Assembly: GCA_027972325.1 (NCBI GenBank)
Contig: JAPMOS010000005.1
Location: 186,001-250,000, forward strand
Length of the DNA: 64,000 nucleotides
Source: Paratrimastix pyriformis
Taxonomy: Eukaryota; Preaxostyla; Paratrimastigidae
Direction of reading: 5' to 3'
In this document: one piece after another, positions 1 through 64,000 of the stretch
How positions within the stretch are numbered: the stretch's first letter is position 1
How the letters are laid out: each line of letters begins with the position of its first letter
Program-made: the position numbers and the translations under genes
Notes under the pieces: generated by a model
What the model saw: only the letters and a program-made list of their open reading frames with translations
Database searches by the model: none
Told to the model about the DNA's origin: nothing

Positions 1-1722
1 TTCCACACTCAGTATATGGCGGAGCTGCTGGCTCTTCAGGAGAAGTACCAGCGCATGTACGAGCCTCTCTTCGCCAAGCGTGCCCAGATCGTGAATGGTG
101 AGCACGAGCCCGCCGAGGAGGAATGCATTCCTTCTGAGACCCCCGCCAAGCCCGCTGAGGCTGGCAAGCCCGGTTCGTCGCCTTCTCTTGGCAGTGCCAT
201 TTTTCATCGAGGGCATCTTTCTTGGTTTTTTAGTTCCTCGTGGGATTCCCAAGTTTTGGCTCTCTGCCCTCCAAAAGTCTATTTGCATACGCACGCTTCC
301 CCAAAATGCTCACCACGACCCTTGCGCGTAGCTTCGATACCTGCTCAGAGCAGATTAAGGAGCACGACGAGCCTGCCCTGGAGTTCTTGACTAACATCGT
401 CTCCACTCCCGTCGCTGGCGAGCCCGAGAGCTTCAAGCTCGATTTCCGTCCGTCGTTAATGATGCCGTTTCCTTGACATCCTGATCTTCTGGTCGTTCCT
501 CTGCAGACTTTGCCCCCAACCCGTTCTTCACCAACACCGTCCTGAGCAAGACCTTCCACGTCATGCAGCAGGCTGGCGACACCGTGTCCCACGTTGAGGG
601 GTCTGTTCGACATCCATTCTGGTGGCGTTTTTTGGTGGCATGGTTCCCCAAGAGGATAACCTTAATCAGACCCTGCAAACATAAGCAACCTTGCGGGGGC
701 ACACTGAAGATCTCTGAACGCTTTCTGAGGGATGAATGTTTGTTTGGTTGTTTGGTGGTTTCTCCGCCTGGCTGCTCACCATCTCCTCCTGGTTTGGCCA
801 CCGCGCAGCACCGAGATCGACTGGAAGGAGGGCAAGGACCTGACCAAGAAGACCATCAAGAAGAAGAAGGGCAAGAAGGTGAAGACCATGACCAAGCCCC
901 GCGACAGCTTCTTCAGCTTCTTCGCTGACCCCGACACCCTCATGGAGCAGATGGAGCCCACCGGCGAGGAGGAGGAGGACGAGATGGCCTTCAACGTCCG
1001 TGCGCGTGCTCCCCCCTGTTGCCGTGTCATCCCCCCAGGAGGAAATCTGAGGCCCCACCCTTGGTGGTTGTGTGGGCCTTCGTTCCCCCTCCAAGATTCC
1101 CTTTCCTCCGCCCCCTCTGCGGCGACCCTCGGACGATTTCTTGCTGATGATTTGTTCTTGCCGACCGCCCCCCTCCCTCCGTCCCTGTTTGGCTTCCCAC
1201 AGCAACTGCAGGAGAACTTCGAGCTTCACCTGTACCTGGGCCGGTTCATCAGCCAGACCCTGATCCCCAACGCCCTCATCTGGCACACGGGCGAGGCCCT
1301 CCGCGAGGAAGGCGACGAGGAGGACGAGGAGGATGATGAGGACGACGATGAGGACGAGGAGGATGAGGAGGCCGAGGAGGAGGATGAGGACGAGGAGGAC
1401 GAGAAGCCCAAGGGCAAGGGCAAGCCCGCCAAGAAGGCCGGCAAGCACCACGACGATGAGGAGGACGACGAGGACGACGACGAGGAGGAGGATGAGAAGC
1501 CCAAGGGCAAGGGCAAGCCCGCCAAGGACGAGAGCTTCGTCCCCACCTCCGGCGCCGCGGTCTGTCGCCCCCCGTCCCCCCACCCGCCATTGAGATGCCG
1601 TGTGTTGTGTTGGTTGGTCCATCCATCCTCACGCCTGACCCGAACTCCGCGTGTTGGGTTGGTGGTAACCGGTGCAGAAGCCCGCCGCTGCCGAGATCCC
1701 CGCCAACTGCAAGCAGCAGTAA
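1..1722 (+). CDS. NAP1: Nucleosome assembly protein 1 (NAP1), 5' end missing
   Basis: Histone H2A-H2B chaperone of the NAP/SET family. Exons 1-172, 234-276, 332-447, 507-600, 809-995, 1203-1559 and 1678-1722 join in one frame to 337 visible residues; the N-terminus lies before the window. Family landmarks in order are KYQRMYEPLFAKRAQIVNGE (dimerisation helix), RGIPKFWLSAL, KEHDEPALEF, FHFAPNPFFTNTVLSKTF, EIDWKEGKDLTKKTIKKK and ENFELHLYLGRFISQTLIP. Then come two strongly acidic Glu/Asp tracts separated by a basic KPKGKGKPAKK stretch that is itself repeated. The protein ends CKQQ before TAA, the same terminal tetrapeptide as human NAP1L1, a possible prenylation signal. Introns are 55-213 bp. 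The acidic tail is coded by GAG/GAC-rich DNA. Identity is firm from domain order; the number of NAP1 paralogs cannot be judged here. Confidence 0.95.
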
Positions 1723-2269
1723 GCTCCCCCTCGGCTTCGGCTGCCTGGGCCATGACGCAATCTCTTTCACCTCTCGCAGCACGTCCTTGCTTTCGTTTTG
1801 GCTGTGCGCTTTCCTTCTTCGGCTGTTCTCGGCCTCCCCCCCAATAATGAGTGCCGTCTGAGTCTTTGCTGGGCGTTTTGTGGGGGCAGCGAGAGGGAGG
1901 GCGACGGTGTTGGTGTTTTCCTTTTCTGCGACACGCGACGACACTGCGACACACACCCGAACGAGAGAAACGTCAGGCCGGGTAATTTACACCCTCTGTG
2001 CAATGCAGACACCCCTCGGGGGTGGGGACAGGAGGCCGGGGATCATCAATGGACCCTCCGCGATCAAGCGAGCCGCCCCCTCCTCGGGGTGGAGCGTTCA
2101 GGGCCGAATGGCCCCAGAGAAAGTGGGAGAGAGGATAGATTGAGCGGACGCTCAGAGCAAATAATAGCGAGAGAGGCGGGCAGTGGCCGGGGGTGCTCAC
2201 ATCTCATGCTGCTCCTCCTTCTCGACCTCGTCCTTCTCCTTCTCATCCCAGTGGGTCGAGAAGAGCTCG

Positions 2270-2570
2270 GTCGATTCAGGCCCCGGGATGGGAGTCGGAG
2301 CGGGGAAGAACCGATCCTGGAAGATCTCCGGCTAAAAGGGAAAATGCAGTGATGGGCGAATCCCACACCCGGAGGGGCGCAACCGACCGCATTAGGGCCC
2401 GGGATAGGCGAGGGAGCCGGATAATAATGACCCCGGAAAATCTCAGGCTGTCTCAGAAGTGAGATCACGGTAAAAAGAGAAAAGCGGAACCGACTGCATT
2501 TGGGCCGGGAATGGGTGAGGGGGCCGGATAAAAATGGCCACGGAAAATTTCGGGCTATGAAAAGATGGTG
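2270..2570 (+). repeat. Three diverged direct repeats, period about 110 bp
   Basis: Similar 65-70 bp segments begin near 2268, 2383 and 2491. Each has a lead of the type gaaccgactgcatttgggcc, then a gggat/gggaatggg block, ggagccggata, and a ccccggaaaatctcaggct-like end. Spacing is 108-115 bp. A weaker fourth fragment (gaacccggaatgggcgaagg) lies near 2668. This could be an old satellite fragment or regulatory repeats of the NAP1/ALG6 gap. Confidence 0.5.
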
Positions 2571-2968
2571 TCAGCATCCGCATCTTGGGGAACTCGAACA
2601 GCGGACAGCGCGAGGTCCTAAAGAGGGAATGTCGAGGTGTTAATTGAAATCTGCTGGCGAAGGTTGCGAACCCGGAATGGGCGAAGGAGTCACGTATGGT
2701 TGAAGTGTCCTCCGCACCTGTGGTTGTTGTGCCTGGGTCTCAGGGAAAGATGCTGATTGCCCCATGAAATTAGGCTTTCGTCGAAAGATCGGCGGGAAAT
2801 TTGGCTTTGGGTCTGCAGCACCAGGAGCAAGGCGGGTTCTCCCTGAAATTTGGATACAGTTGGGAGGGAAGGACAGCCCGGGAGATGAAATCATGTGAGT
2901 GGCAAAAACGAAGCAGAGAAGCAGCGAGAAAAGGTCTGGAAGCGGAGAACGGCCGAGGGCCGGGTTTC

Positions 2969-4061
2969 CCCCTTAATGTACCTAAGAATTGGAAAAACCC
3001 CATTTTGACGCCCTTCCGGTCTCCACCACCTCCCACCCGTCCACCGAAGGCCCAACCTGAATTGCGCAGTATAAAGAGGCCGAGTGGGGCTACACACAGG
3101 TATCTTGAGTTCCCTCCGGGGGGGGTCGGGGGGATGGTGACACCACACAGAACCATCGAGGGGGCATTTGGTCTGGAGACCAAATGGGTTTGGTCCGTTA
3201 TAGGATGGGGGGATGCAGCCGTCGGGTCGACGGGGGCCGGGGGGCCGGGGGGAGGAGGAGTGGTGTGCTGAACGCGAGGAGAGTTGGGTCTGCCACTCGG
3301 CAGGGTGTCGCGTTTCGAGTCGATCAACCATGTGACCCCCCGGGCGGCCACCTCCCCTTGATGCGAACCCCTCGATGGGGGCGATCCGGAGCGGGCCGCC
3401 TCTTTCAACCGTCGCACTCGTGAGCCCTCAGCCCCGAGACCCTGCCGGAGGATCAGTGGCAGATTGCACCCTTCACGAACCCGGACAGGGTCGTGACGAT
3501 GGGGCAGGGGGTGCGAAAAAGTTGACAGGGGAGGCGAGTTCCGGGCCAGCCTGGGGGCACGGGCGGGGTGGCCGGGCTTCCCCCGGGCACCGAGGTGAGG
3601 GGAGCCTCTAGTGAACGCGCCGACTTGGGGGCATGGGGGCTGGGCGCATCGGGCCAGGAGGCGGGCCGAGTGATGACCGACACCCTCCGAACGACCCAGC
3701 AGCATGACACCGGGGCAAACTCCGAGGGACCCTACAGCGGGGGCCGGGAAGTCAATGGTCTTTTCTCGCAATAATGTAGCAAGGGTGCCTTCCCTCAATG
3801 CACCGAGGGTGTTTGGACTCCCCTGCGAAGCACCCGAGCCGCTTCGAGGTCAAAACCTGATATCGCCCATCGATGTCTTGTGTGGTCGCGGGTCGGACTC
3901 GATCACCGCGGATCAATTTCACCTTATGTCCGTTCGAGAAGACCACGAGGACGTCCGAACGCCAAGAGAAATTTCCTTTCCGGCCCCTTCGAACCGGCTG
4001 AATGGCGGGCGCAACCTTGTCAAAAATTTGAATTTTTCAAAACCTTAGGTACATTAAGGGG
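2969..4061. mobile_element. Putative non-autonomous DNA transposon with terminal inverted repeats
   Basis: The left end reads ccccttaatgtacctaag (2969-2986) and the right end is its exact reverse complement (4044-4061). Similarity continues inward for about 25 more bases (ggaaaaa...ttttgac on both ends), giving inverted repeats of 41-43 bp around a 1.1 kb unit. The trinucleotide ttc abuts both outer ends and could be a 3 bp target duplication. No transposase motif was recognised; the interior is GC-rich, unlike the AT-rich ends. The family cannot be assigned from one copy. Confidence 0.5.
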
Positions 4062-4237
4062 TTCTCTTTTCACGATTTTTCTAGACCCATGGCCTTTTTT
4101 GTCCCTTCCTGGGGGCACGGACGTATCATAGGTGCGACATTCACTGCCCGAAAAGGGAAAGGAACTCAAAAAAAATGTGGAGCACAGTGTTTGTACCCCG
4201 ACAGGTGAAGCAAACAGTCCACAAATCGTGTGCCCTT

Positions 4238-6960
4238 ATGCGTGCGCCTCCGCTCTGGGTCGTCTCGATTCTTTTCGGGTTCACCCTTAGGGCAATAGTG
4301 ATGCACCACCCATATTCCGGTTCGTCCATGCGTTATTCTGTGGTGGTGCTCATTCCTTCCTCCAGGCCAAGGGCAGCTTCCAATTCATGGTGATTTCGAA
4401 GCTCAACGGCATTGGATGGAAATTACGATTAATCTCCCTCTCGAAAACTGGTATCGGAATGGCACCCATAATGATCTTCAATACTGGGGCCTCGATTATC
4501 CCCCTCTGACGGCATACTTCAGCTGGGTCGTGGGAAAAGTGTCTGTTAATTATTGTACCATCGGGCCAAGAATATGCTCGCAGGTTCGAGGTTTTCTATC
4601 CCCCGATGGTGGAGCTCGAGACATCCCATGGCATTGAGACCTATCACGCCAAGCTCCTCATGCGCCTCTCGGTGTTAGCATGCGATTTGCTTATTTTTCT
4701 GCCTGGTTTGGTTGCGTTCGTCGTGTCGGTCTGCTTCTTCCAATCAATGGGTGAACTCTAACGAATGATGCCGTCAGGTCGGGAGGAGGGCGGCTCTCAC
4801 CGAGGTGGAGGTGGCCCTGTGGTTGCTGATGGTTGTGGTCAACCCGCCCTTGATTCTCATCGACCACGGCCACTTCCAGTCCGTCGCTTTGCCCGGGGTG
4901 ATGCTAACCCACGGGCCCGGTTTCACCCCAACTCGGCCGTCCCCTTGTTCCGCACCCGCAGGTACAACAACGTTTGTCTGGGCCTGGTGGTGTGGGCCCT
5001 GGTGGCCCTGATGCGCTCTCCGGCCAGCCCGGGGTCTTCTGAGTACTGGGCGGCCCTGTTTTGGGACGCGGCCGCAGCCCTGTGCTACTCGGGGGCCCTG
5101 CAGTACAAGCAGATGGCCCTCTACTTCGCCCCGCCCTGCGCCTTCTACGTCCTCGGGCGGGCCTGGGGATGGGCGCGCCGGGGTCGGCCCGTCAAAAGGT
5201 CCGTTCGCTGTGCCCACTTGATTGCGCAGTGATGGACATGGCCGGGGATGAAGCCGCATCCCTGCCCCGCACATCCCCGCCATGATCGGGGCGCAGTCCT
5301 CACACGCCGCCTGTGCCACTGCTCGTTGTTCGCCCCAGCCTGGTCTACATGGTGGCTGTTCTGACTGCCTTTGCAGTGCCTGCCGTCGCGTGCTGGGCGC
5401 CGCTGTGGCCCGTCTGGCGGGACGTGCTGGGGCGGGTCTTCCCCATCGCCCGCGGGGCCTATGAGGGTCCGCCCCCGGCACCCGGACGCTCCCCTCGCCA
5501 CACACCCAGCCAGCCCCCCCCCATGGCACCGCTCACCGCCAGCGTCGTTTCGTTTCTTCTTCGATTTCGGTTGGGCTGGCAGACAAGGTGGCCAACCTGT
5601 GGTGCAGCCTGTCGCCTGTGCTCAAGATTAAGTCGCTCCCCCTGCCGGTCGGCCTCCGCATCAGGTCCGCAGCCCCGCCCTGCCCCACCATTCTGGGGTT
5701 CCTCATCAGCGCCAACACATCTTCGTCGTTCCAATTGTCATCCAATCGTCAGAATCACCATCGCCATCATCATCTTCGTTCTCCAGTCATCCAGTCATCA
5801 TCCTCATCGCCTGATTATCATCAACATGGACTGACATCTGGGGGTGTCGTGTCGGGCGATGAATCAGCCTGGTGAGCACCCTGCTGGGGCTGGCGCCCAG
5901 CTGCCTGCTGCTGCTGCGGGACCCGCGGCCCGTCCAGATGCAGGCGGCCATGTTCACCTCGGCCATGGCCTTCTTCCTGCTCTCCTTCCAGGTCCTCCTC
6001 CTGCCCCACATCATCCCATGCCTGCCCCTGACGGGTCCGGCGTGCATTCTTCACCACCGCACTCCATCCGGCTGGGTGGGGGGGGCAGAAGACCATCCAT
6101 CCGCATCCCGGTACTTCTCCGCCCTGGCACACGCACATCCTCTGCAGATGCAGACCATCCTCTTCCCGTTCCCTTCTCTCTCTGTCTTGACCCACACGCC
6201 TTCTGTCCGGGGTGCAGGTCCACGAGAAGACCATCCTCTTCCCGCTGCTGCCGCTGATCCTGCTGGGGCCCCGGACGGGCCACTGGCTGGCCCAGTTCGT
6301 GCCCTGGCTGGTCGCCGTGGCCACCCTCAGGTCCGCACCGCCCCCGCCAAGCAGCAGCGGGTTGTTGCGACTTGCCCTGCCTGGCCTGCCCACCTCCCTC
6401 GCCCTCCATCGAGTTTTCATCATCAAATCAGCGCATCATCCCCAGCCATCATCAAATCAACATCATCAAACCAAACGACATCCTGGGGCCCGATCCCTCG
6501 GCTGCTATCTGGTGGGGGCTGCAGCATGTACCCGCTCCTGGCCAAGGACGGCCTGCTGGTGGCCACGTACCCGCTGACCATCCTCTTCCTCCTGCTGCCC
6601 CGCATCCTCCCCACCCTCGCCGGCCCCACCCCCACCCCCACCACCTCGGCCGCCCCCGGCTCGCCCACCGAGGACTCCCTTCTGCTGCGGGCCTTGCGCC
6701 TGGCACGGGTCTGGCTGTTTTTTCCTCCGTTTCCGGGCTGACCTGTGGACGGATAGTGTCTCTCCTGGGTGGGCGGCCCGGCCCTGGTTGTGCTCTTCCA
6801 CTGGGGGCCCCGGGTGCCCCGGCTGCCCGACCTGTGGCACCTGCTCCTCACCTCCGCCTGCTGCGGCTGCTTCGTGCTCGCGTGGGCGGCCGGCATCGCC
6901 TATCAGCGCTCCCTGCTGCGGGCAGCAGCCACCCCGGCCGCCCACCCCAAGAGGTGCTAA
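4238..6960 (+). CDS. ALG6: Dolichyl-P-Glc:Man9GlcNAc2-PP-dolichol alpha-1,3-glucosyltransferase (ALG6)
   Basis: Adds the first glucose to the lipid-linked Man9GlcNAc2 oligosaccharide in the ER lumen; GT57 family multipass membrane enzyme. Eleven exons: 4238-4319, 4366-4540, 4584-4728, 4778-4878, 4962-5198, 5339-5466, 5583-5664, 5868-5991, 6218-6330, 6525-6708 and 6757-6960, giving 524 residues, close to human ALG6. Hallmarks are [17 protein letters not shown] (luminal acidic/His loop), [51 protein letters not shown] and [15 protein letters not shown], between hydrophobic helices. The start at 4238 gives the short N-terminus usual for the family; an in-frame ATG at 4175 is possible. The exact donor near 4729 is the least certain junction. 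HGD, HGHFQ and QVHEK motifs favour ALG6 over ALG8. Confidence 0.95.
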
Positions 6961-7244
6961 TTGCGGAGGGATGGGGAGCGACGGGCAACTGTTGAAAAAC
7001 AGAGGCCAAACCACCAAGAACCATCCCAAAACCGAAAGCAGGAAAAACAAGGGAGCAACTGCGGGGTGGCGGAACGACCACAAGGAAGAGAAGAACGACC
7101 CCAAGGGGAAAGACATACGCTCAACACAAAAACCCAACGGCCGTCTCAGCCCCCCCACAAGGGCGGCGCATTTTTCGTGGTTCGCCCTCGATGCAACACT
7201 CAGTTAAATCTCATCAGCCAGGTGTGGCGCTGCGGCGACCTCGT

Positions 7245-8159: not shown

Positions 8160-8254
<95 letters not shown>

Positions 8255-11208: not shown

Positions 11209-17615
<6,407 letters not shown>

Positions 17616-21545: not shown

Positions 21546-23548
21546 TCACACCTTGGACTCGGCCTCCGGGGGCGGGGGGATCGCCGCGGGCTGCTTGGCG
21601 GCCGGGGCGGCGGCCTTCTTGGCGGCCCGCCGGCGGAGCAGCATCAGCCCCACGACCGCGGCCGCCACCAGGGCAACGGCGCCCACCGAGCCGCCCGCCG
21701 CGATGGCGAGGGTCGTCCCCGTGCTGGCCACGGCCGGGTCCACGGGCACTGCGGGTGGCGGGTGGAGTGAGGGGAAGAGAAGATGGGAATGTGGGATGAA
21801 GAAACCCGCGAGAGGAGGACGTGGGACTTGAAGGGGGCGGGGGCGTGGAGCGGCGGCGGGGTGGCGGACCGCTGATGCCGGTGATGGGCAGGATGGCCGC
21901 CAGGGCGGCCTTGGGGGCGGGCACCAGGTCGCCCGCATCCTCGGCGCTGTTGGCGCCGGCCCGCAGCAGGAAGCGCACCTCGGACACGTGGCCCGGGACG
22001 AAGTTGCCGAACTCCGCATCGAACTCTGCCCAGGGGGTGGTGCCAATGTCGAATGGTGAGACGAGTGTACCAGCGGAGGTGACAATGGGGGGCGCGGGTG
22101 GACGGCGGGGGCGGGGCGGGTGGTGGGTTGCGGACCGAGTTCGGTGATCAGGTTGGGGTTCATGTCCACCCCGAGGGCGTAGTGGAAGGCCAGGATGTCC
22201 AGGTGGAAGGTGACGTTCCAGAGCATGGTACCCGTCCGGGTGACCTCCTCGTGCAGCTCAGGAATGGCCCCCCAGAAGGCCGGCGCGTTGTTCACCACGA
22301 GGATTTGGCTCTCCGCCTCGGGGCACGTCTCGCCAGCCTGCGAATGAGGGAGAAGGGTTCCGGTTGGAAACCAAGTGTGTGGAGGCGGCGGCAGTGGCGG
22401 CAGTGGGGGCGCCCGGAGTGACGGACGTGGGGCAGGGTGCACACCCGCATCCGAAGCATGTCGGCGTTGCTCAGGGGCACGTCGGCGTACAGCTCGCCCA
22501 TGACGGTGCAGTGGCGGCCCCAGGCCAGGGCCGTGCCGCCGTCCATCTCGACCCACAGGCGGCCCGTGACGGTGATGTTGATGACGGTCGCCTCGCAGTT
22601 GCCCGGGATGATCTCATAGTCGGCGAAGTAGTCGCCCTCGGTGCCGCTGGGGCAGTGCTCAGCCTCGCGGCACGTCACGTGGGACCCGATCCGGTAGATG
22701 CCCCCCAGCAGGCAGGTCGTGGGCTGCTCCCGGATCCGCATGAAGTAGGCCCGCTCGCAGAAGCTGTGGGGATGGGGGATAGGAAGCAGGTGAGGAAGAG
22801 GGTCGGACACGGGCGGGAGGGGTGCAAGCAGCAGCAGCAGCAGCAGCAGGCCGGGGGCGGACCGGATGGGGTCGGCGCAGTTGTCGTCGGCCGGCTCGGG
22901 GATCAAGTCGATCAGACTCGGGTCCACCGGGGCCGACACCAGGAAGGGCAGGCCCTGCTCGTAGGGGAAGTTGGTCCAGATGGAGAAGTGCAGGATGTAC
23001 TCCAAGTCGACATGCGAGTAGTACGAGTCGCCCTTCTCGAAGCCCGTGTAGTTGACCACGTGCATCACGTCGACCGTGGTCGAGGCGTCCACGCTGATGG
23101 TCTGCTCGATCAGGATCTCCATCGACTGGTACCGGCGCCCGTAGACGGGGTCCCCGTTCGGGTCGATGCCCGTCAGCACCGTCGACAGGACGTGCAGCGG
23201 CACGTGCCAGAGCATCTTGTCGTCGATCACCTCGGTGATGACCGAGGGGCACGCGGCGATGGTCGTGAGGAGCTCCCGGAAGGACATCTCCACATCGCAG
23301 GGCATCGCCGGGTCGGGGACGACGACCGTGGGCACCGGCAGGCAGGCCGGGTCGGCCACCAGCGGAGGGGGGCCCGCCGCAATGACGAACTCGCTCAAGC
23401 TGAAACCGTCCACCTTGACGACCAGCTCGTCCCCGTCGACGAGGGCCTCGCTGAACGTGGCCGCGTGGAAGGACGCGGCCGGGCAGTCAAGGGCCGATGC
23501 GACGGCCCAGAGAATCGACACCAGGAAATAAATGGTTGTTGCCTTCAT
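21546..23548 (-). CDS. Type I membrane protein, unknown family, copy 1
   Basis: Five exons on the minus strand (22863-23548, 22427-22763, 22136-22337, 21870-22025, 21546-21748) give 527 residues. A clear signal peptide (MKATTIYFLVSILWAVASA) leads into a large Cys-containing ectodomain with NYT, NIT and NVT glycosylation sequons. A single membrane helix follows (GSVGAVALVAAAVVGLMLL) and a short basic, Pro/Ala-rich tail ending ESKV. No domain was recognised; the beta-rich ectodomain with spaced Cys is compatible with many extracellular folds. A paralog with identical exon lengths lies at 41592-43716. The start is fixed by the signal peptide. Likely a cell-surface protein; partner and role unknown. 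Confidence 0.85.
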
Positions 23549-24193: not shown

Positions 24194-26442
24194 ATGTCGG
24201 ACGCTCAAAGGATCTTGCAGACGCAGCAGGAGGCGATGGTGGAGCGCCAGATCAACGAATTGCTGAGGCGAGAGAAGGGCCCCCACGCATTCTGGGACAC
24301 CCAACCCGTCCCCCATCGGGAATCCGAGCTTGCCCCTTCAATCTCTGGCATGCGCCCCTTGGAAAACGCCCAGACCAAGGTGATCCGTCGTGACCCCCTG
24401 CCACTTCCCCCCGGATTTGAGTGGTTCACGGTGGATGTGGACAACCAAAGCGAAATGCAAAAACTTTTCGACCTCCTCAGCGAACATTATGTCGAGGACA
24501 CTGAGGGCATGTTCCGGTTCCGTTATTCGATCCCCTTCCTTCGCTGGGCGCTGAAACCGCCAGGGTATCTGCGCGCTTGGCATGTTGGGGTGCGTGTGAT
24601 CAGCACGGGGAAGTATGTCGGGTTTATCTCCGGGGTTCCGTCGACCGTCCGCACGGACGCCCAGGAGCACCGCATGGCCGAGATCAACTTCCTCTGCGTC
24701 CACAAGGCCCTCCGCGCCAAGCGGCTGGCTCCGGTGCTCATCAGCGAGATCACGCGCCGGGTCAACCTGGAGGGGATCTTCCAGGCCGTCTACACGGCCG
24801 GGGTGGAGATTCCCACGCCCATCTGCCAGGCGCGCTACTTCCACCGGTCGCTGAAGCCCAAGAAGTTGATCTCGGTCAACTTCACCCACCTGCAGCCCCG
24901 CATGACCATGTCCCGCACCGAGAAGCTCTACGCCCTCCCCGCCACGCCCGCCATCCCCGGGGTGCGGTCCGCCTGCTCCCCCGATCCGAACATCCCATTC
25001 TCATGCCCGTTCCCATGCCCATTCCCATGCCCATTCCCATGCCCATTCCCATGCCCATTCCCATGCCCATTCCCATGCCCATGCCCGTTCCCATGCCCGT
25101 TCCCATGCCCATTCCCATGCCCATTCCCATGCCCATTCCCATGCCCATTCCCATGCCCGTTCCCATGCCCATTCCCATGCCCATTCCCATGCCCATTCCC
25201 ATGCCCATTCCCATGCCCATTCCCATGCCCATTCCCATGCCCATTCCCATGCCCATTCCCATGCCCGTTCCCATGCCCGTTCCCATGCCCATTCCCATGC
25301 CCATTCCCATGCCCATTCCCATGCCCATTCCCATGCCCATGCCCGTTCCCATGCCCGTTCCCATGCCCATTCCCATGCCCATTCCCATGTCCATTCCCAT
25401 GCCCATTCCCGGGGCTTGGCCAAACAGGCCCCTGCGGGCGGAGGACGTGGCCGTTGTCCGGCCGCTGCTGAACGCGTACCTGCGCCAGTTCCAGGTGGCC
25501 ATGGTCTTCAACAGCGACGAGGAGTTCGCCCATTGGTTCCTGCCACGCCCCGATGTCCGTCATCATCGCCCAATCAGCATCAGCATCATCCAGTCATCAG
25601 AGGAATTCGCCTGGTTCCTGCCCCGCCTCCGCACCGTCGCTGCCCCCAGATGTCCCCATCCCCGCGGGATCCCGTCCCCGCCATCATCACCCATGACTGC
25701 ATTTCGTGGGGTGGCCATGCGTGTGTGAGCAGGTGGTGCAAAGCTTCGTCGTGGAGGACCCGGCCGACCACCACATCACGGACTTCTTCTCGTACTACGT
25801 GCTCTCCTCGTCCTGCCTCCACAACGCGTCCGTCCGCCGCCCATCTGCCTCATCCCCGACCATCTGCCTCACCCCCATCACCATCTGTCTCACCCCCGGC
25901 ACCATCTGCCTCACCCCCATCACCATCTGCCTCACCCCCGACCATCCGTCCCACCTTCACTACCACCATTGCATCGCCACATCCATCTGCATCACCCACC
26001 CACTCACCCGCCCGCATCGCCCGCATCACCCGCATCACCCGCATCACCCGCATCACCCGCATCGCATCGCCCGCATCACCATCTGCACCACCACCCACAG
26101 CCCACCACCCCTGCTCCCCCCCCCCCCCCCCCTTCACCCCCGCCCTCACCCTCACCCTTCACCCCCCCCCCCCCCCCCCGCAGGCAATACCCCACCCTGA
26201 CGGCCGCCTATGGGTTCTACTACTTCAACAACGGGCACCCGCTGGCCGAGCTGATGCGGGCAGCCCTGGTCATGGCCAACAACGGCAACTGCGACGTCTT
26301 CAACGTGCTCGACCTGATGCACAACCGCGAGTACTTCGACGAGCTCCGCTTCGGCCAGGGCGACGGCAACCTGCACTACTACCTGTACAACTGGGCCATG
26401 CCCCGCATCGACTCGCCCGCCCTGGGGGTGGTCCTCGTGTAG
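24194..26442 (+). CDS. NMT: Glycylpeptide N-tetradecanoyltransferase (N-myristoyltransferase)
   Basis: Transfers myristate from myristoyl-CoA to N-terminal glycine of target proteins in the cytosol. Four exons (24194-24966, 25428-25554, 25733-25827, 26184-26442) encode 417 residues. NMT landmarks are PLPPGFEWFTVDV, LLSEHYVED, FRFRYSIPFLRWALKPPG, VGFISGVPSTVR, EINFLCVHKALRAKRLAPVL, EITRRVNLEGIFQAVYTAG, WFLPR, VVQSFVVEDP, DFFSYYVLSS, AAYGFYYFNN and FGQGDGNLHYYLYNW. It ends LGVVLV, where the C-terminal carboxylate is the catalytic base in known NMTs. The N-terminus is short. Intron 1 (461 bp) is almost all a 12 bp minisatellite; intron 2 contains a partial copy of the preceding exon end; intron 3 ends in two C-runs before the acceptor. 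Confidence 0.95.
24998..25411 (+). repeat. 12 bp minisatellite (cccatgcccatt)n in NMT intron 1
   Basis: About 34 copies of a cccatgcccatt unit, with scattered cccgtt variants arranged in a periodic pattern that suggests higher-order duplication. It fills the intron between the IPGVR and PLRAEDV coding segments. Read through it would give PFPC or MPIP repeats, but splicing restores the family sequence. Confidence 0.9.
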
Positions 26443-35022: not shown

Positions 35023-35053
<31 letters not shown>

Positions 35054-41591: not shown

Positions 41592-43910
41592 TCACACCTT
41601 GGACTCGGCCGCCGGGGGCGGGGGGATCGCCGCGGGCTGCTTGGCGGCCGGGGCGGCGGCCTTCTTGGCGGCCCGCCGGCGGAGCAGCATCAGCCCCACG
41701 ACCGCGGCCGCCACCAGGGCAACGGCACCCACCGAGCCGCCCGCCGCGATGGCAAGGGTCGTCCCCGTGCTGACCACGGCCGGGTCCACGGGCACTGCAG
41801 AGTGGATGGGAGGGTGGGGAAGGGGAATGTGGGAGGAGCTGGGACTTGAAGGGGGCGGGGGGAGGGAGGAGGGGGTGAGGGACGGACCGCTGATGCCGGT
41901 GATGGGCAGGATGGCCGCCATGGCGGCCTTGGGGGCGGGCACCAGGTCGCCCGCATCCTCGGCGCTGTTGGCGCCGGCCCGCATCAGGAAGCGCACCTCG
42001 GACACGTGGCCCGGGACGAAGTTGCCGAACTCCGCATCGAACTCTGCCCCAGGTGGCGGTGGGGTGGGTTGGCACAAGGTGAGGTGGGCGAGTGTACGGC
42101 GGCAGAGCGAGGAAGGTGCGGGCAAGCAGGGTAGGCCAGAGCCGCGGGGCGGGCGGCGGCTGGCGGCTGGCGGCTGGGGAGAGGGCGGACCGAGCTCGGT
42201 GATCAGGTTGACATTCATGTCCACCCCGAGGGCGAAGTGGAAGGCCAGGATGTCCAGGTGGAAGGTGACGTTCCACACCATGGAACCCGTCCGGGTGACC
42301 TCCAGGTGCAGCTCAGGGATGGCCCCCCAGAAGGCCGGCGCGTTGTTGACCACGAGGACTTGGCTCTCCTCCTCGGGGCACGTCTCGCCAGCCTGTGAGG
42401 AAGTGGGGGGCGGGGCGGGTGGCGGTTGGTGAGCGAGGCTAACAACGGCGACGAGAGTGCGTGAGAACGCGATGACGCTGACTGGATGATGAGGCGAGCG
42501 GATCGGAGGGCGGCAGTGGCGGCAGTGGGGCGCACGTCAGAGAGGCGGGACGGACGTGGGGCAGGGTGCACACCCGCATGCGGAGCATGTCGGCGTTGGC
42601 CAGGGGCACGTCGGCGTACAGCTCGCCCATGACGGTGCAGTGACGGCCCCATGCAAGGGCCGTGCCGCCGTCCATCTCGACCCACAGCTCGCCCGTGACG
42701 GTGATGTTGATGACGGTCGCCTGGCAGTTGCCCGGGATGATCTCGTAGTCGGCGAAGTAGTCGCCCTCGGTGCCGCTGGGGCAGTGCTCAGCCTCGCGGC
42801 ACGTCACGTGGGACCCGATCCGGTAGATGCCCCCCAGCAGGCAGGTCGTCCGCTGGTTCCGGATGCGCATGTAGTAGGCCCGCTCGCAGAAGCTGTGTGG
42901 CGGATGGGGGTGAATGAAGCGGGTGAGGGCGGCGCGCGAGGAAGATGGTCGTACACGGGATGGCGCGGTGGGCGGGAGGGTGCGCGGGTGCGGGTGCGTG
43001 TAGCGGCGGCGGCGGCAGGTGGGGGCGGACCGGGTCGGGTCGGCGCAGTTGTCGTCGGCCGGCTCGGGGATCAGGTCGATGTCACCCAGGGGCAGCGGGG
43101 CCGACATCAGGAAGGGCAGGCCCTGCTCGTAGGGGAAGTTGGTCCAGATGGAGAAGTGCAGGATGTACTCCAAGTCGACATGCGAGTAGTACGAGACGCC
43201 CTTCTCGAAGCCCGTGTAGTTGACCACGTGCATCACGTCGACCGTGGTCGAGGCGTCCACGCTGATGGTCTGCTCGATCAGGATCTCCATCGACTGGTAC
43301 CGGCGCCCGTAGACCGGATCACCGTTCGGGTCGATGCCCGTCAGCACCGTCGACAGGACGTGCAGCGGCACGTGCCAGAGCATCTTGTCGTCGATGACCT
43401 CGGTGATGACCGAGGGGCACGCGGCGATGGTCGCGAGGAGCTCCCGGAAGGACATCTCCACATCGCAGGGCATCGCCGGGTCGGGGACGACGACCGTAGG
43501 CACCGGCAGGCAGGCCGGGTCGGCCACCAGCGGAGGGGGGCCCGCCGCAATGACGAACTCGCTCAAGCCGAAACCGTCCACCTTGACGACCAGCTCGTCC
43601 CCGTCGACCAGGGCCTCGCTGAACGTGGCCGCGTGGAAGGACGCGGCCGGGCAGTCAAGGGCCGATGCAACGGCCCAGAGAATCGACACCAGGAAATAAA
43701 TGGTTGTTGCCTTCATAAGGCGGCGATCGTAAACAATCGGTAGTTGGGGAAGAAGAAGATAAAATTGAGTTGCAGTGGGAAACGGCGCTGTTTTCTGAAT
43801 TTCATTTCATGGGGTTCTTGCCACTGCCAAAATTTCGTAAATTTGAAGATTGAGCAGCGCCCCACCGGCATGAATTTTCAGTGCCGAATCGCCCCACATC
43901 CAGAAAATCC
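40898..43910. repeat. Segmental duplication, copy 2
   Basis: Direct-orientation copy of 20985-23745. It starts with the last ~15 coding bases of the SAM-domain gene, whose TGA is changed to CGA here, and carries the full membrane-protein gene plus about 190 bp upstream. It is about 250 bp longer than copy 1, mainly through growth of a cagacaca microsatellite. The rest of the SAM gene is absent, so this is the derived copy. Confidence 0.85.
41592..43716 (-). CDS. Type I membrane protein, unknown family, copy 2
   Basis: Five exons on the minus strand (43031-43716, 42556-42892, 42191-42392, 41888-42043, 41592-41794) give 527 residues, with every exon the same length as in copy 1 at 21546-23548. 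By eye about 20-25 residues differ, for example DGFGLSEF for DGFSLSEF, KGVSYYSH for KGDSYYSH, and SAPLPLGDIDL for SAPVDPSLIDL. Signal peptide, sequons, single membrane helix and the ESKV end are all kept. Introns differ in sequence and length except at their splice sites. Intact reading frame and equal exon lengths suggest that both copies are functional. Confidence 0.85.
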
Positions 43911-44643: not shown

Positions 44644-49357
<4,714 letters not shown>

Positions 49358-52810: not shown

Positions 52811-52841
<31 letters not shown>

Positions 52842-55383: not shown

Positions 55384-57506
55384 TTACGGCCGAGGGCCAC
55401 CGAAGCCGCCTAACGAGACCCCCCCGACACAGACAACAGGGGGAAACGAGTCGTCAGTCAGCCCCCCATAACGCCGCCCCCCACTCGCAGCCCCAGGCAG
55501 CCCAGCCAAAGGAGGAAAAGCAGGGGGGGATGCAGACCAGGTGGCATGAACCCGCCGGGTGGAGGAGGCGGGGGGTGGAACCCACCCATGGGGGGCATCC
55601 ACCCGCCCGGCCCGCCGAAGCCGCCCGGAGGGGCACCGGGGAAGCCGCCAGGGGCGGGGCCGCCGAAGCCGCCGAAGCCGGGCGGGGGCGGCGGGGCGCC
55701 GCCGAAGCCACCGGGGGCAGGAGCGCCGCCGAAGCCGCCAAAGGCGGGCGGGGCGGCGGCCGGGGGTGGCGGGGCGGGGGCGGTGCCCGTACGTGGGCGG
55801 ACGTCGGCCTCGAGGACGGGCCGGATGTAGATTGTGTCTGGCGGGTGGCTGTGCGAGGCAAGGGGGAGGCAGGGGGAGGGGAAGCAGAAGAACAAAGGAG
55901 GGGCCGGTGAGCAACGGGGTGTTGTCTTGTGTCGTGTCGTGTCAGAGTGTTGTGGAGGGCTGAGCAGACTCCATGTCGCCCTGCTCGAAGGTGTACGAGG
56001 AGGCGATCGCCAGCAGAGAGCCGTCGTTGCTGAAGGCGCACGAGCTGATGCTGCAAGGGGGGCGAGTGCCAGAGGACAACCGACGGCGGCGGGTGGGGGC
56101 GTGGTGAGAACGACATCATCGGGGTGGGGGGATGGGGGATGGAGATGACCGAAGGGGGGGCGCGCGGACCTGGTGGGAAACCGCTGGAACTGGCAGAGGC
56201 GCTTCTTGTTGACGGGGTCCCAGATGTTCACCACCGCGTCGCAACCGCCCGTGGCGAAGGTGCCGTACCTTGATAAGGAAAGGGGAGTTGGGATGGGGTT
56301 GGGGTTGGGTGGGGTGGGGGTGGCGCGGACTGGGGATGGAAGGCCAGCGCGTTGACGGGGTACACGTGGTCGACGCCATCCTGGTTGACGCGGTGACACT
56401 TGAAGGCGTACTTGCGGGCCTGCGAGGCCGGGCTGGGGTCGAAGAACTCGATGGCCACGCGGCCCTCGATGCTGCTCAGGGCGTACCCTGGGGGAGGGGG
56501 GGAGGGGGGGAGGGAGGAGGGGAGACGGGAATGAGCGGGGAGGGAGACAGAAGGGAGGCCCGTATATTTTGACCGGATTCCGCGGGGTGGTTCTGGAGCA
56601 CCTCCCACATGGGGGGCGTGGGGCGTGGTAGGGCGTGTGGGCATCCAGACCGGTGCCGTCGGGGAAGGCCTTGATGGCGCGGGTCTGATACTTCAGGGAG
56701 GACTCGCGGGACTGCTCGGGCTCGGACTGCCACAACGAACCAGAGGAATCGTTCGATGCGCGGGATGAGGAGGACAGACCATTTGACGGAGGTCATAAAT
56801 CAAAATATGCCGGCCGGCAGTGCCCACGACCACGCGATCGCCCGAGATCGTCATGGTAAAAACTTTCTCGGGGAGGTCATGTTTGCTGACAGCCCCCTTT
56901 GCCCGGTAGTCCCAAATTTTAAGGGAGCGGTCCCAAGAACCCGAAACAACAATGCCTGAGGTCGCAATCAGATCGAGCACCGCGTGTGCCAACGAGTGTC
57001 CGAGTCACAAACCATGCACAGACACGAAGATGTATGAGTATCCGAGCCCAAGAAGAGGATGGGTGACACAGACCCCGAGCCTCGTTGAACTCCACCGAAC
57101 GAACGGCCTTATCGTGCGAACCCAGAATGGATTCCTGCCCAGAGGTGAACTCATACCTGATCCCGGAATGTGTATGGAGAGGACTACAAGAAAACACAGA
57201 CATTTTCACAGTCTTATCCACACTGCCCGAAAAAGCCATAGTGTCATCCCCAAAACAGCAGTCCAGGACACCAGCCTTGTGATAATACCTCGATTTCAGA
57301 GTGTTCGAAGCCACATCATAGAGCCGGACACCCTAGCGAGGGGTGATAACGGGAAATACACGGAAAAAGAACGAAGGGTTGGCCGAAAAAATACAAAAAA
57401 TGCGGACTGAATCCCATGAAGAAACCAGAAGCAAATTCTGGGTCTTTGCAAATCTGACGGTTGTAATACCGTCGGCAGGAGGGTGCGCAAGTTGGAATTG
57501 CGACAT
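55384..57506 (-). CDS. BUB3: Mitotic checkpoint WD40 protein BUB3 with Gly/Pro/Phe-rich tail
   Basis: Seven-bladed WD40 propeller that binds BUB1 and MAD3/BUBR1 at kinetochores. Ten minus-strand exons (57408-57506, 57198-57332, 57074-57134, 56780-56955, 56651-56726, 56331-56487, 56170-56268, 55970-56050, 55538-55848, 55384-55409) give 406 residues. Matches along the family are [117 protein letters not shown] and [31 protein letters not shown] and the KYAFKCHR spacing favour BUB3 over the related RAE1. After the propeller there is an unusual tail of about 100 residues rich in GGFGG, PPPP and PGGF. It is joined in frame to the propeller and reaches a 26 bp last exon ending GGPRP. Confidence 0.92.
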
Positions 57507-57783
57507 CCTTGTCCCAAAGGTCCAATCCACTATTTCCAATGCACCGGCCACGGTTGAACTTGCCGTCCTTTCAGCAGCAACGGACTGCCGTTGAAGGCCT
57601 GCGCACTTTGGGTGTGTGCCCAAGGTGTATGCTCTTGATCTTGAACCACCGAGAGAAAGGTGTCTATGAGAGCATTGAAGCCTCCACACGCTCCGTTTCG
57701 AACTTCCTTGAGCCGGCCCACCTTCCCCTAACTTACCCCCGTCTGGTTTCTCCCTTTGGCCAATTCTAAACTCGTCTACTGAC

Positions 57784-60700
57784 ATGCGGACGATAGCCAA
57801 CAATCTGTGCCCCTGCTGTTTGGGGATTTTTGATCTCCTCACCAAGGAAGAAACTGTCCAGAAACTCTACCAGGATATTCTGAAAACAGATTACGAGGTC
57901 CACTCGAGCGTCACTGTTTCTCGCGCCCCAATGTCCTTCTTCCACGCCCCCCAGTTTCCCCGCTACACGCTTCGGATCGTGTGCCCGCACTCCGTCAACG
58001 TGCGCGTGCTTTGCTTCCAGATTTATCTTAAGGACCTTTGCGGGTCCGTGTCCCCCCGGTCATGCCATCCATCCTCACCCCATGCCAGAATCGACGTGCC
58101 CACGATGCGGGACGCGGACGTGAAGGACGTGGCGCGGCTGATCCTGATCGACCGGCTGGATCGGCTGCTGCAGAAGCAGCACGAAGTCGAGGTCGACATG
58201 CCTCCTCCCCTCCCTCTTGCCGATCACCTGTTCCGTCCCCTCCCCCCCTCTCCCCATGATCCCTTGGGTCGACATCCCCCCATCATCCCTTGGTCGACAT
58301 CCCCCCAAAATGACGATTTGGAGGCATTCCCTGCAGATGTGTCGACATTGCCCCACGCTGATCCTTGGGTCGATATTCTCCCGGTGCTTCCCACCCCCCT
58401 CCCCCGGCACCCCACCTCCCCCGACCCCAGGGCCCCTTCGGGGTGACGGTGACCATCGAGCACCCGAGCGCCACCGAGTTCGACTTCCTGGCGGAGAGCA
58501 TCCTCAACCTGAAGGAGAAGCAGGCCCTGCAGACCCAGCGCCGCCAGGCCCACAAGCACGCCCTCTTCAAGGAGGAGATGCAGCGCCAGCTGCGGGCAAC
58601 CTCGGGCGCTGCCATGAGGGCCGCAGCTGCTGCTGGTGCTGGCGCCGCACAGGGGGCGAGCGAAGGTCGGTCGGGGGGCATGGCAGACAGGCATGCGCCC
58701 TGTCTCTTTCACCACAGCACCCTCTCTCTGGTTGTTTGTCTTTTTTTTCCTCATTTCTTCAAGCTGTTTGGTCGCTGTTCCTTCTCCCCGACACCCACCT
58801 GTCGCCGGATGCCTGCCACCACGCACACGCATACGTTCTTTTGTTGTTTTTTTGAATTTTTCCCCTGACGGCCTTCTCCCTCTCTGTCTCAACACCCACG
58901 CACACACACATGCGTTGACCATCTCCCTCTCCGGCCCCCCCCCCCCCCCCCCCCCCCCCCCTAGGCGCCTCTCCGCCAGCCCCGCCCTCGCGACCGACTC
59001 CGCCTCAGCCGCCTCGATCAGCGTCACCGCCTCGGCCACGCCCTCCGAGGCCCCCACGCCCTCGCCCTCGCCCCCTGCGGGCAGCATTTCCTGGGGCAAG
59101 CTGGGCGGCGGGGGAGACGCCGACCCTGACGAGGCAGACGAGGAGGCTGCCGCTCCGCCCCGTGGCGGCGCTGCTGCTGGTGCCGAGGGGGCGGCTGAGA
59201 TGCTGGAGGTGGACGAGGACGATGAGGAGACCAGGCGCAAGCGGGCCAAGGCCGGTAACACCCCCCGCATGTACAACACGCACACCCGAGCCCCCGCCGT
59301 CGTCATGTCCAATGTCCCGGCGCCCGCTCTCCCCGCACGGACACAACAGTCGACGTCACGTCTCGCCCTGTCGCCTCCACTTGGTCTCGCTATGTCTTTG
59401 ACACGCCCTCACCTCCCTCTGCTCATCACCTCCATCCGACACGTCTCCACACCCCACACCCCCACTTCTGCCCCTTGGCGCCCGCCAGCCGGACAAGACG
59501 GTCGGCCTGACGAACACCGTCCTCAGCCGGATCTTCGCCAAGCCGCCCCGAGACGCCCTCCTCGCGTCCGCACCCGCACCCGCCCCCCCAACACTCGCCC
59601 CCCCGCGCCTGTCGCCCGCACGCCCCACTTCCAACACTCCGGCACTCCGACCCCCCCCCCCCCCCCCCCCCCCCCCCCGGGCACAGAGACACACGGCATC
59701 GGCACCTCCTTGCAGCGTCTCATGATTTCCCACACACCCGTCCCGATGTCCCCCCATGTTCCATATGGCCCCATGTCCCCCAATCTGGCCCCATGTCCCC
59801 ATCAGGCACAAGATGGTCCCGCCGCCCCCCGTGGCGGAGCCGGTCAGCCTGCAGCTGGAATGCGAGATGGAATCGGTCCTCGTGGGCGGTCCGCAAGCCA
59901 CCACAACCCCCACCCCCACCCCCTCCCCGTCGGGGCTTTGATTGCGACACCTGTTGGGGACGCAGCGTGTCGGTCGCTCAGCGCCTCATTCTCAAGGCCT
60001 TTGGACGCCAAGGATGGGCAGGCAACGACTGCAAGTCCTCGCCCCCCTCATTCCCACCGCCTCATTCGCACTGCCCCGATCTGGGCCCCCGGCAGCAAGG
60101 ATTCCCCCTCATTCTCATTGCTTCGGCCTCAATATCTGGACAGCCCGATCTGGGCCTCACGGGCAGGCAACTACTGCAAGTACTCGCGGATTCTCATTCT
60201 CACGGCCCCTTGTTGTCCCTCTCTGCTCACTCACGGGCAGGCAACTACTGCAAGTACTCGCGGATTCTCTCGCAGACGCCCTGGCTGATCGACGGCAGCC
60301 GGCGGACGGCCGACTCGGTGCAGGAGCTCATCGGCGAGCCCATCGCGGCCCACTTCAAGACATCCCGTCCGCCGCAGCCCCCGCCACACACGCACACCAG
60401 ACACTCACACTCATCACATCGGCGAGCCCATCGCGGCCCACTTCAAGACATCCCGTCCGCCCCAGCCCCCGCCACACACGCACACCAGACACTCACACTC
60501 ATCACATCGGCGAGCCCATCGCGGCCCACTTCAAGACATCCCGTCCGCCCCAGCCCCCGCCACACACGCACACCAGACACTCACACTCATCACATCGGCG
60601 AGCCCATCGCGGCCCACTTCGAGACTTCCCGTCCGCTCTGGCCCCCGCCCCACATAGGCACACAGCACAGCAAAAGCAGCACCCCGTACACTCCCACCCA

Positions 60701-61581
60701 CCACTTTGACAAGCCCATTTGCGCATTGGACTCTGGGTCACTGTGTGGGGGGGCCCTCGTCCACTCCACCCGTCCGTATGGGGGGCAGGGTACCTGTTCC
60801 ACTCGGCCGGCCGGGAGGACGTCGACGTGCGGATGCTGGGCGAGGGCCGCCCCTTCGTGCTGGAGCTCGTCCGGCCTTGCCCCCAATATGCCCCCGCCAA
60901 TATGCCCCCGCCCCCTTATGCACCCAATCTGCCCATGCACCCAATCTGCACCATTCACCCAGGATGCACGCAGGCCCCCAATATGCCCCCATCCCATCTT
61001 ATGCTGCCGTTATCTGGCCCATGTCACTCCCCATGCCCCTCTGCGCCGCCCCATGCCCCAACCACCCGACGATGCTCGATGTCACGATGCCTTGCGCCAA
61101 CCAACTTGCTCACCTTCGTTCTTTCTGCCCATCCGTGCGTCTGCCCATCCGTGCGTCTGCCCGCCCCTGCCCCGCCTGCCGGCCAGCAAAACGCGCATCG
61201 GGTCTGCTTCAGCCCAGAGGAGTACGAGCGCTTCGCGGCTGAGGTCAACGGGGCCACCGACCTGGTCGCCGTCAGCCGCCTCCGCTCTGTCACAAAGTCC
61301 GCCCCCACCACAGGCATACAGCATCATCTCCATCCCATCACATCCGTTCCCATGCCATCCCATGTCATCCCTCTCCCAAGCTCACTTACACATTGTGGTG
61401 CTGGGCTGGATGATGACTGGATGATGACTGGATGATGACTGGATGATGATTGGATGATGTTGGTGATGATGGTGTTGGTGATGGTGATGTGATGATGATG
61501 ATGATGGTGGTGGTGATGGTGATGATGATGATTGGATGATGGTGATGGTGATGGTGGTGGTGGTGGTGGTGGTGGTGGTGG

Positions 61582-61659
<78 letters not shown>

Positions 61660-62010
61660 CGGCTGGGCAGGGACGAGTTCACGGTGCTGAAGGAGGGCGA
61701 GAACAAGAAGCGGAAGACCTACCAGGCCGTCGTCTGGCTGAGCCAGGCCCGCTCCCAGGCCCAGCTGGTCTGCCGCCACCCCCACCTGCCCCGCCCACCT
61801 CACGCACGCCCGCGGGTGCCCAGTGACATCCGTGCTGGCTCGAATATATTTTCCCGTTCCTTCTTCTCCCTTTCTGAATTGACACGCCCACGGGTGCCCA
61901 GTGACATCCGTGCTGGCTCTTCGACCTCTCTGCTTCCCCGTTCCTTGTCCCTTTTCGTAGTGGCACGCACGCGTGCACACCCACCCATCCGGCTTGCCCC
62001 TATCCCCCCC

Positions 62011-62041
<31 letters not shown>

Positions 62042-63027
62042 ACACCTCTCTGGTTTTTGTTTTATTTTCCCGTTCCTTCGTTCCTTCTTTACTCGACACA
62101 CACACACACATACACACACGCACCACACGGGTGTGAGACGGGATCGACCACTCATCCCCCCGCCTCCCCTCCTCTCGCACCACAGGACGAGGTGCTGTCC
62201 CGCGTCCACGACCTGCATCTCGACCAGCTCACCCCCATCCGCGTCCTGCACCGGTCCGTCCGCCCCCCGATCCCGCGCCCGATTGGGCGTGCACAACCCT
62301 GATGGGGGCGAAGGGCTGTTCCATCGGCTCTTCGGTTGGTGGGCTCACAACGGGATTCCTCCGGGTTCGTCGTCTGTGCTCTTTTGGCTGTGCTGTGCTG
62401 GCCGTCTGTCTGGCGCCCCTGTCTGTCTGTTTGTCTGGGTACCTGTGCCTCTGTCTGTCTGTCTGGACCTCTCTGACTGTCTGTAGCCGAACGCTGGCCA
62501 CTCGGGACAAGATCATCCACAGCGCCCAGGGCCGCTCGCTCAACCCGCACTTCTTCCTGCTCACCCTCGACACCTCCGCCGGCACGTCCGTCCCGCCGGC
62601 CGCCCGCCTTCCCCTTCCCGCCCAACCGCCGATTCAAAAATCGCCTCCCCTTCCCGGCCACCCACCGCCACATCCTGTTTTCATCCTTCTCCCCATGTCT
62701 GTCTCTGTCTGTGCTGCCTGTGCTGCCTGTGCTGCCTGTCTTTGTCTGTCTCTGTCTCTGTCTGTCTGTGCTGTCTGTCTGTCTGTACTGTCTGTGCTGC
62801 TGTCTGCGGGGCGCAGCTACGTCAAGGAGTTTGTCCACGGAGACCTGGGCCGGACCCGGCCCAACGTGGGCACCCTACTGGGCTGCGAGGCGGACATCCT
62901 GCAGCTCGACGTGCGCGACCTGAGACTCGACCTCACAACCCCGACCACCACAGCCACCACAGCCACCACAGCCACCACAGCCACCACAGCCACCACAGCC
63001 ACCACAGCCACAGCCACCGGCAAATAG
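57784..63027 (+). CDS. PUS10: tRNA pseudouridine synthase Pus10
   Basis: Converts uridines 54/55 of the tRNA T-arm to pseudouridine; Pus10 family of archaea and many eukaryotes. The N-terminus has a CPCC Cys pair (NNLCPCCLGIFDLL) and a THUMP-like part (57784-58043, 58089 to about 58185, 58431-58669). A long Ala/Ser/Glu-rich insertion follows (58965 to about 59253). The catalytic domain exons are 59806-59888, 60241-60366, 60789-60868, 61187-61296, 61671-61767, 62186-62253, 62487-62585 and 62817-63027. Key motifs are GNYCKYSRILSQTPWLIDG, AGREDVDVRMLGEGRPFVLE (catalytic Asp in the REDVDVR segment), LTPIRVLHR, and TYVKEFVHGDLGRTRPNVGT. It ends in about 25 Thr/Ala residues coded by a (accacagcc)n repeat. 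Exons between 59250 and 59806 are only partly resolved (PDKTVGLTNTVLSRIF lies near 59487). Confidence 0.9.
60330..60660 (+). repeat. Four 88 bp tandem copies of a PUS10 exon-intron junction
   Basis: Copies start at 60330, 60418, 60506 and 60594, exactly 88 bp apart. Each opens with atcggcgagcccatcgcggc and contains ttcaagacatcccgtccgcc, i.e. the coding end IGEPIAAHFKTS plus its GTCCG donor, then intron sequence. Only the first is in frame with the upstream exon. The fourth has drifted most. Confidence 0.95.
61411..61664 (+). repeat. (GAT)n/(GGT)n microsatellite in a PUS10 intron
   Basis: ctggatgatga units, then mixed gatggtgat, then about ten ggt and about 28 gat triplets, ending only a few bases before the acceptor at 61670. 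Confidence 0.9.
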
Positions 63028-64000
63028 AGCGGATCGGCTCATTTTGGACGATGGCTGGGGGGGAATGACCATTTTTGGGGCGAAGAGACATCTGGGACGA
63101 CTCGGACGAGAGATCGGGCGAGACAACACAAACAACTCCCGCTCTCGAGCTGGTGATAGACTTGACCGACGCCCGCCTGGCAAAGGCAAGCCCCTGGCAC
63201 CCAGGGGTGAACCCCGATAGTCGGTGTCTCCCCCGCTCGGTTTTCCGGAAGGGAAAGAAGAACCGGTAAAAGGCCAACCCAGCAGGTAGGTCACTGGGCG
63301 CCAGAAACGTGGCGGTCAATCCGCCAAGCCCTGACACTTCGCAGCCCCCCACCAGATTCGCCAAAGTCAGTCCTGTCCATGGGCCCCTGATATAGGCCCG
63401 CAAAGGCACCCCCTCATGACCGGGGGATGTTGGTCTGGCAGTCGAGGGGTCTTGGCCCGCACTAACGCCCTCGCTCGTCATCGATTTTCGCGAGCATCCG
63501 TCGGAGGTGGCTCCCACTGTCCCCACCGTTCGGGCTGAGCGCCTGGCCGATCTGCGCGAGGAGCCTGGAGGCGTCGGGGTACTGGAGGGGGCACAGACAC
63601 CCCATATGGAACCGCCCGGCAGGGCTCCAACACAGGGGTGCAGCAGCATGCAGGGGTACCAGCGACAGGAGGTCGAGGGTGCCCCCTGGGGGGAGGGTGA
63701 CACTCGGCGAGGGGGGGGCAGGGCTGGCGATGGTGGGGGTGGAGCGGCCGGGGAGTGGGGAGGCGGCGGGGTGGCTGAGGAGGGGTCAGGGATGGGTCAG
63801 GTGAGGGACGTGTGCTCTCGGGCATCACCGCCGAGGCTCGCGCCGTTTCCTGGGTCGGCAGTCCCCCCGGCCCCGACTCCGGCTCTGTACGCCGTCCGCA
63901 ACCGGCTGGGCGTTGCGGCCCGCCCGCCCCGTGGCCACCGAGGCGGAGGCGCGCAAGGTCGCCCAGGCGGAGATCTGTCCTCCAGAGCCAACTCACCCCC
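63028..64000. other. Unassigned region after PUS10
   Basis: Nearly 1 kb with no gene I can name. A perfect 7 bp stem with a 3-base loop (cccctgg-cac-ccagggg) lies at 63190-63206. From 63420 to the window end the plus strand is open for about 190 codons, including HPSEVAPTVPTVRAERLADL. The last 60 bases also read EAEARKVAQAEICPPEPTHP in another frame. Either could be the 5' part of a gene that continues beyond the window; in DNA this GC-rich such openness is weak evidence. Confidence 0.35.

Follow-up and report, generated by a model that had tools for sequence, protein, structure and literature searches.

The 5′ end of the U1 snRNA and the donor sites of this genome have very probably been rewritten together, co-evolving in introns that are otherwise ordinary U2-type GT-AG introns. 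Few known RNA segments are as conserved as the ACUUACC end of U1, and the change described here, as read from the sequence, appears to be a natural recoding of a signal that is regarded as almost invariant among eukaryotes. All U1 copies that we found are changed along with the donors, implying that a fixed U6 does not prevent the code from being rewritten. The assembly that was searched comprises 56,060,509 bases in 495 contigs; the window, that is, the whole 64,000-base stretch of DNA that was analysed, corresponds to contig positions 186001-250000.

A covariance search with the U1 model (RF00003) gave eight matches over model positions 1-166, with E values from 3.7e-13 to 2.0e-10. Their scores (50.8-60.2 bits) are below the Rfam gathering score of 69.5; when three of the copies were compared with the whole of Rfam, U1 was the sole family at E<=0.01. 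The first pass with RF00003 scored 41 of 992 candidates, a depth at which more diverged U1 copies could escape. The predicted fold of one copy (z = -3.41, 1 of 200 shuffles equally good) fits the arrangement of the Rfam alignment, with stem-loops I-III round a junction and a 3′ stem-loop. In addition, a putative Sm site (CAUAAUGUUUGG) aligns with CAUAAUUUgUGg, and a putative U1-70K loop (GAUCACACAG) aligns with GAUCAaGAAG.

All eight genes start with ATACAGACCTTG, where the Rfam consensus reads AUACUUACCUG (given in the alignment as AUACUUACCUGG). Positions 5-6 are AG in every gene instead of the consensus UU, while positions 1-4 and 7-9 are standard. The initial annotation had proposed from the donors either a U1 with compensating purines, to be found by a search by structure, or donor recognition mainly by U6 or proteins, and the first proposal was borne out: A5 and G6 are both purines in 8/8 genes, ACAGACCUU is present in 8/8 copies and the unchanged standard end ACUUACCUG was not matched. 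A pattern search in which positions 5-6 were left free came back to these eight sites alone, with no alternative letters at 5-6. CCATAA lies 58-59 bases upstream of each of the eight genes, and ATACTTACC was found nowhere in the assembly at a distance of 40-70 bases after CCCATAA. We also searched for a U1 with G at position 5 (CCCATAA N40-70 ACGGACCT), which gave 22 places (1 with the reversed pattern as a control); ATACGGACCT was present at 1 of the 22, and this candidate was rejected as the next 200 bases did not resemble U1 by eye. The element CCCATAAT, often after a run of T, occurs upstream of the eight U1 genes, four U6 genes, one U5 gene and one U2 gene; it is found at many other sites too and could be a promoter element of general use.

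The donors were recounted from scratch, as the 126 sites of the initial annotation came without a listing. We used our own spliced-alignment program, in which GT and AG were compulsory and no preference was set at the other donor letters. The PRP8 gene, which lies outside the window, was found via PF08083 and aligned to a profile of 13 PRP8 sequences. All 17 of its introns begin with GTC (11 GTCCG, 5 GTCTG and 1 GTCGG), and masking the donors singly cost between 10.8 and 105 score units per donor. In the window, the N-myristoyltransferase gene (profile of 12 sequences) has GTCCG at 3/3 introns, all on the plus strand and all with a CAG acceptor: 24967..25427 (donor GTCCGC, phase 2, masking cost 30.7), 25555..25732 (GTCCGT, phase 0, 24.8) and 25828..26183 (GTCCGT, phase 2, 23.8). 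With the environmental sequence P0203 alone as the guide, a fourth, N-terminal intron with the donor GTCACG was predicted in a stretch of low conservation, and it was omitted from the homology donors. Eight chaperonin (CCT) loci, for which reference sequences were lacking, were left out of the donor counts. The pooled set from PRP8 (17) and N-myristoyltransferase (3) thus consists of 14 GTCCG, 5 GTCTG and 1 GTCGG, with C at +3 and G at +5 in 20/20 and with C, T and G at +4 in 14, 5 and 1 donors, respectively; GTRAGT was absent (0/20).

For a larger sample we used a two-strand gene HMM whose coding, intron and acceptor parameters were derived from PRP8 and whose donor model was flat beyond GT. 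It was applied to 264 kb, i.e. the 64-kb window and 20 other 10-kb stretches. At a posterior >0.9 there were 165 donors, 106 of them GTYYG (83 GTCCG and 21 GTCTG) and 2 GTRAG; within the window (1..64000) the corresponding figures were 53 GTYYG (77%) and 1 GTGAG among 69 donors. At a posterior >0.5, GTYYG made up 167 and GTRAG 3 of 355 donors (71 GTYYG of 118 in the window), a lower share that is expected if errors are more frequent among junctions of lower certainty. In the background of all 27,840 GTs on both strands, 8.6% were GTYYG and 2.0% GTRAG. The initial annotation had counted 102 GTYYG among 126 donors (81%) in fourteen genes, a claim that is confirmed by the window sample and by +3 C throughout the homology donors. 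The donor consensus, however, is GTCCGY and not an evenly mixed GTYYG: the letter frequencies were C 0.80 and T 0.10 at +3, C 0.61 and T 0.19 at +4, and G 0.74 at +5. The ratio of C to U at +4 was 3.2 to 1, compared to a C:T ratio of 1.3 to 1 (0.33 to 0.26) in the introns. No dependence between donor positions was seen in 24 Fisher tests (smallest p 0.13), and an early impression that +3 T was coupled to +4 T was not borne out.

Could GC-rich composition or bias in the gene models have produced this pattern as an artefact? The GC content is about 63% over most of the window and positions +7 to +9 are C-rich, as such an artefact would have it. Moreover, the total likelihood of the HMM was slightly higher with a GC donor than with GT, so that likelihood alone cannot single out GT, and a first, unsupervised training from long ORFs gave a +3 C frequency of just 0.40 at the first pass and 0.67 later. 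This training was rejected as drifting because the acceptors lost their pyrimidine signal in later passes. Further training from the PRP8 seeds drifted too; therefore only the flat-donor counts, which precede any donor learning, were used, and the trained-model path through the window (139 introns, 82 GTYYG) was kept out of the evidence for the pattern. However, the 20/20 homology donors with +3 C were set without a donor preference, and purines at +3 are depleted even though G is equally GC-rich. Furthermore, when CT, GA, TT, CA, GC, AT or TG was forced as the donor, none of these seven dinucleotides had an excess of YYG, which came next in 8-14 of 97-141 confident sites, compared to 109/170 when the same control was run with GT (duplicates from overlaps were kept). 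An artefact is thus extremely improbable.

The preference for C at +4 is also seen in two paralogous genes on the minus strand of the window, at 21546-23548 (a) and 41592-43716 (b), which encode a predicted secreted or membrane protein. The paralogues are 88.5% identical over the aligned positions and have four intron positions in common, and GTCCG is present at all four shared donors in both copies, although the introns themselves have diverged widely, with many gaps and substitutions. The donors of introns 1 to 4 are GTCCGC (22857..22862), GTCCGT (22421..22426), GTCCGC (22130..22135) and GTCCGC (21864..21869) in paralogue a, and GTCCGC (43025..43030), GTCCGT (42550..42555), GTCCGC (42185..42190) and GTCCGT (41882..41887) in paralogue b. 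For introns 2 to 4 the pairwise alignment and the HMM path agree in both copies; the intron 1 donors were placed by the point of divergence in the pairwise alignment, this intron being absent from the HMM path in a and read through by the HMM in b. That +4 C was kept between the paralogues suggests selection for C and not mere drift.

In other respects the introns look conventional. The acceptors of PRP8 are CAG or TAG at 17/17 introns, with a pyrimidine-rich stretch before many of them by eye; the GT and AG ends themselves were imposed by the spliced-alignment method and so are not an independent observation. The U12-type donor RTATCCTT was found at 0/20 homology donors. An all-against-all comparison of 156 introns gave no sign of introner-type introns, i.e. 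of similarity over the whole length: there were 12 hit rows (10 pairs) at E<1e-5, which came from paralogues, from three adjacent copies in one gene and from short inner stretches. The three adjacent copies are near-identical predicted introns ∼88 bases apart, at about 60366-60600 on the plus strand, and are probably a tandem repeat.

Next, we considered how the altered U1 would pair with these donors. In the usual register, C9, C8, A7, G6, A5, C4 and A3 of U1 lie opposite -1, +1, +2, +3, +4, +5 and +6 of the donor. The mature U1 5′ end as predicted from the genes is AUACAGACC, and such a U1 (5′-AUACAGACCUU) would bind the donor via -1G, +1G, +2U, +3C and +5G (to C9, C8, A7, G6 and C4, respectively), with +4U pairing with A5 in a minority of donors. 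Compensation as originally proposed thus holds at +3, where G6 pairs with C, and holds in part at +4, where A5 suits the U minority only (Watson-Crick pairing in 19% of the HMM donors and 25% of the homology donors). For each of the two donor sets, AG comes second by mean predicted duplex energy among the 16 letter pairs at U1 positions 5-6 (-5.66 and -7.38 kcal/mol, compared to -2.40 and -2.90 kcal/mol for UU). That GG, and not AG, comes first (-9.00 and -11.5 kcal/mol) counts against co-evolution, as does the result that donor positions showed no mutual dependence. As a change this good or better would be drawn 2 times in 16 a priori, the energy alone is modest evidence, and the case rests chiefly on all eight copies being identical and on the direction of the change at +3.

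The other snRNAs of the assembly include four identical U6 copies with GATACAGAGA (stretch GATACAGAGAAG), in which the ACAGA box is unchanged, nine full copies and one partial copy of U2, and seven copies of U5. In the one U2 copy that was read, the stretch that reads the branch site is GTAGTATCTGTTCT, and in one U5 copy the loop is GCCTTTTAC; we take both to be standard. The usual U6 register places the G of the ACAGA box opposite +3. At the hand-over to the U6 ACAGAG box, +3C would therefore meet a G again, and a G opposite +3 C in both U1 and U6 would account for +3 varying least among the variable positions. In this way U6 may act as a helper in donor recognition.

A stronger role for U6 has also been weighed, in which U6 and proteins mainly choose the donors, as proposed for Entamoeba, and the change in U1 is incidental or came after a drift driven by U6. 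GUCUGU does complement the unchanged U6 ACAGAG box except for its last letter, the fit of U1 to +4 C is no better than that of U6, and in Entamoeba, with its GUUUGU donors, U1 is reported missing (PMC6018208, PMC13292270). On the other hand, U1 persists here in eight copies that all have the same 5′ end and are preceded by a shared element, and G is the best of the four letters at U1 position 6 for restoring the pairing with +3 C. We consider it very unlikely that U6 and proteins lead in this way, and return to a U1 that changed with its donors.

The majority letter at +4 then asks for an explanation of its own, as +4 C faces A in both U1 and U6 and would have to be tolerated or favoured there. 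Candidate causes are an A+.C wobble flanked by G-C pairs, a need to keep the U1 duplex from becoming too stable, a protein contact, or an RNA modification at A5. The last of these would mean that A5 of the mature U1 is chemically altered and thereby comes to prefer +4 C, e.g. by conversion to m6A or to inosine, which reads as G. It would fit the presence of A5 in 8/8 copies despite the donor preference for +4 C, and a G-like base at position 5 would give the best of the 16 duplexes. Moreover, the U1 end UACAGA resembles the m6A motif of U6, and the genome has a gene with a Methyltransf_10 domain (G000:C332:38824-39153). This gene, however, may not be METTL16, since PF05971 matches E. coli and other bacteria as well; m6A has no obvious preference for C; and no enzyme is known to deaminate U1 position 5. 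Such a modification is, in our judgement, quite unlikely. The first seven letters of U1, AUACAGA, are identical to the U6 stretch round the ACAGA box, while the standard U1 shares just AUAC with it. This likeness would allow a single code, in which U1 and U6 read the donor by the identical AUACAGA with +3 C as the anchor and a modified A favours +4 C, giving a new genome-wide code; taken as a whole, this conjunction is unlikely.

The system can be compared with others in which donors or U1 have changed. With standard pairing between U1 and GTRAGT it shares the U1 fold, U1 positions 1-4 and 7-9, GT-AG ends, +5 G and the YAG acceptor; it differs in AG for UU at U1 positions 5-6 and in donors with C at +3 and C/U at +4 in place of a purine and A. 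Engineered suppressor U1s, in which a change of the 5′ end is matched to changed donors, have been made in laboratory cells, but here the change is natural and is present in every U1 copy found, together with the bulk of the sampled introns. In a survey of Saccharomycotina (Parker et al. 2023, PMC10581693), lineages switch between +4 A and U donors with U6 unchanged. Donor letters next to the U6 ACAGA box have changed by lineage against a fixed U6 both there and here. According to the same survey, U1 ACUUACC is invariant wherever U1 was found (227/230 species and 9/10 outgroups), whereas here U1 has changed, and +3 as well. The survey also ties SNRNP27K and a Methyltransf_10 protein to the +4 switch, and both families have matches in this genome too (SNRNP27 at G000:C9:25886-25972). 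Elsewhere, SNRNP27 and Methyltransf_10 are linked to donors with A at +4, although few donors of this genome have that letter.

The diplonemid S. specki, as described in PMC12621601, is likewise a protist that has a U1 with an altered 5′ end, but there a copy with a C stretch stands beside a conserved copy, whereas the eight copies found here are all altered and alike. In Fritillaria borealis 5′ splice sites have also changed genome-wide, yet PMC13326754 reports a strictly kept U1 5′ end and proposes a U2AF duplication and m6A changes; its authors point out that the change there did not go by way of a divergent U1 and ask why not. Entamoeba histolytica GUUUGU shares the pyrimidines at +3 and +4, but in contrast to the U1 reported missing there (PMC6018208, PMC13292270), U1 here is full and multi-copy with a fitting 5′ end. 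The Guillardia nucleomorph has a standard U1 (PMC6461891) and Giardia U1 reads ACUUAC (PMC3510501). We found no description of a U1 of the present type in the literature searched, with subscription journals mostly outside it, and an earlier description is possible.

A genome of this kind would permit direct tests of the pairing partners at +3 and +4. By sequence, the two usual pseudouridines of U1 are absent here, making their role testable, and the same would hold for the way in which thousands of introns come to undergo a change of this kind. In this genome, introns would be misplaced by gene-finding software built on GTRAG donors.

Finally, PRP8 is 75-80% identical by BLAST to the animal, fungal, plant and Acanthamoeba sequences chosen, with a partial Haematococcus sequence (65%) as the exception; its best full-length match is 79% identical, and none is near identical among the best 120 of 2820 matches. 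For the N-myristoyltransferase gene (24284-26439, plus strand) the nearest protein is the environmental sequence P0203, which is 75% identical, indicating that relatives of the organism are present in public environmental data.
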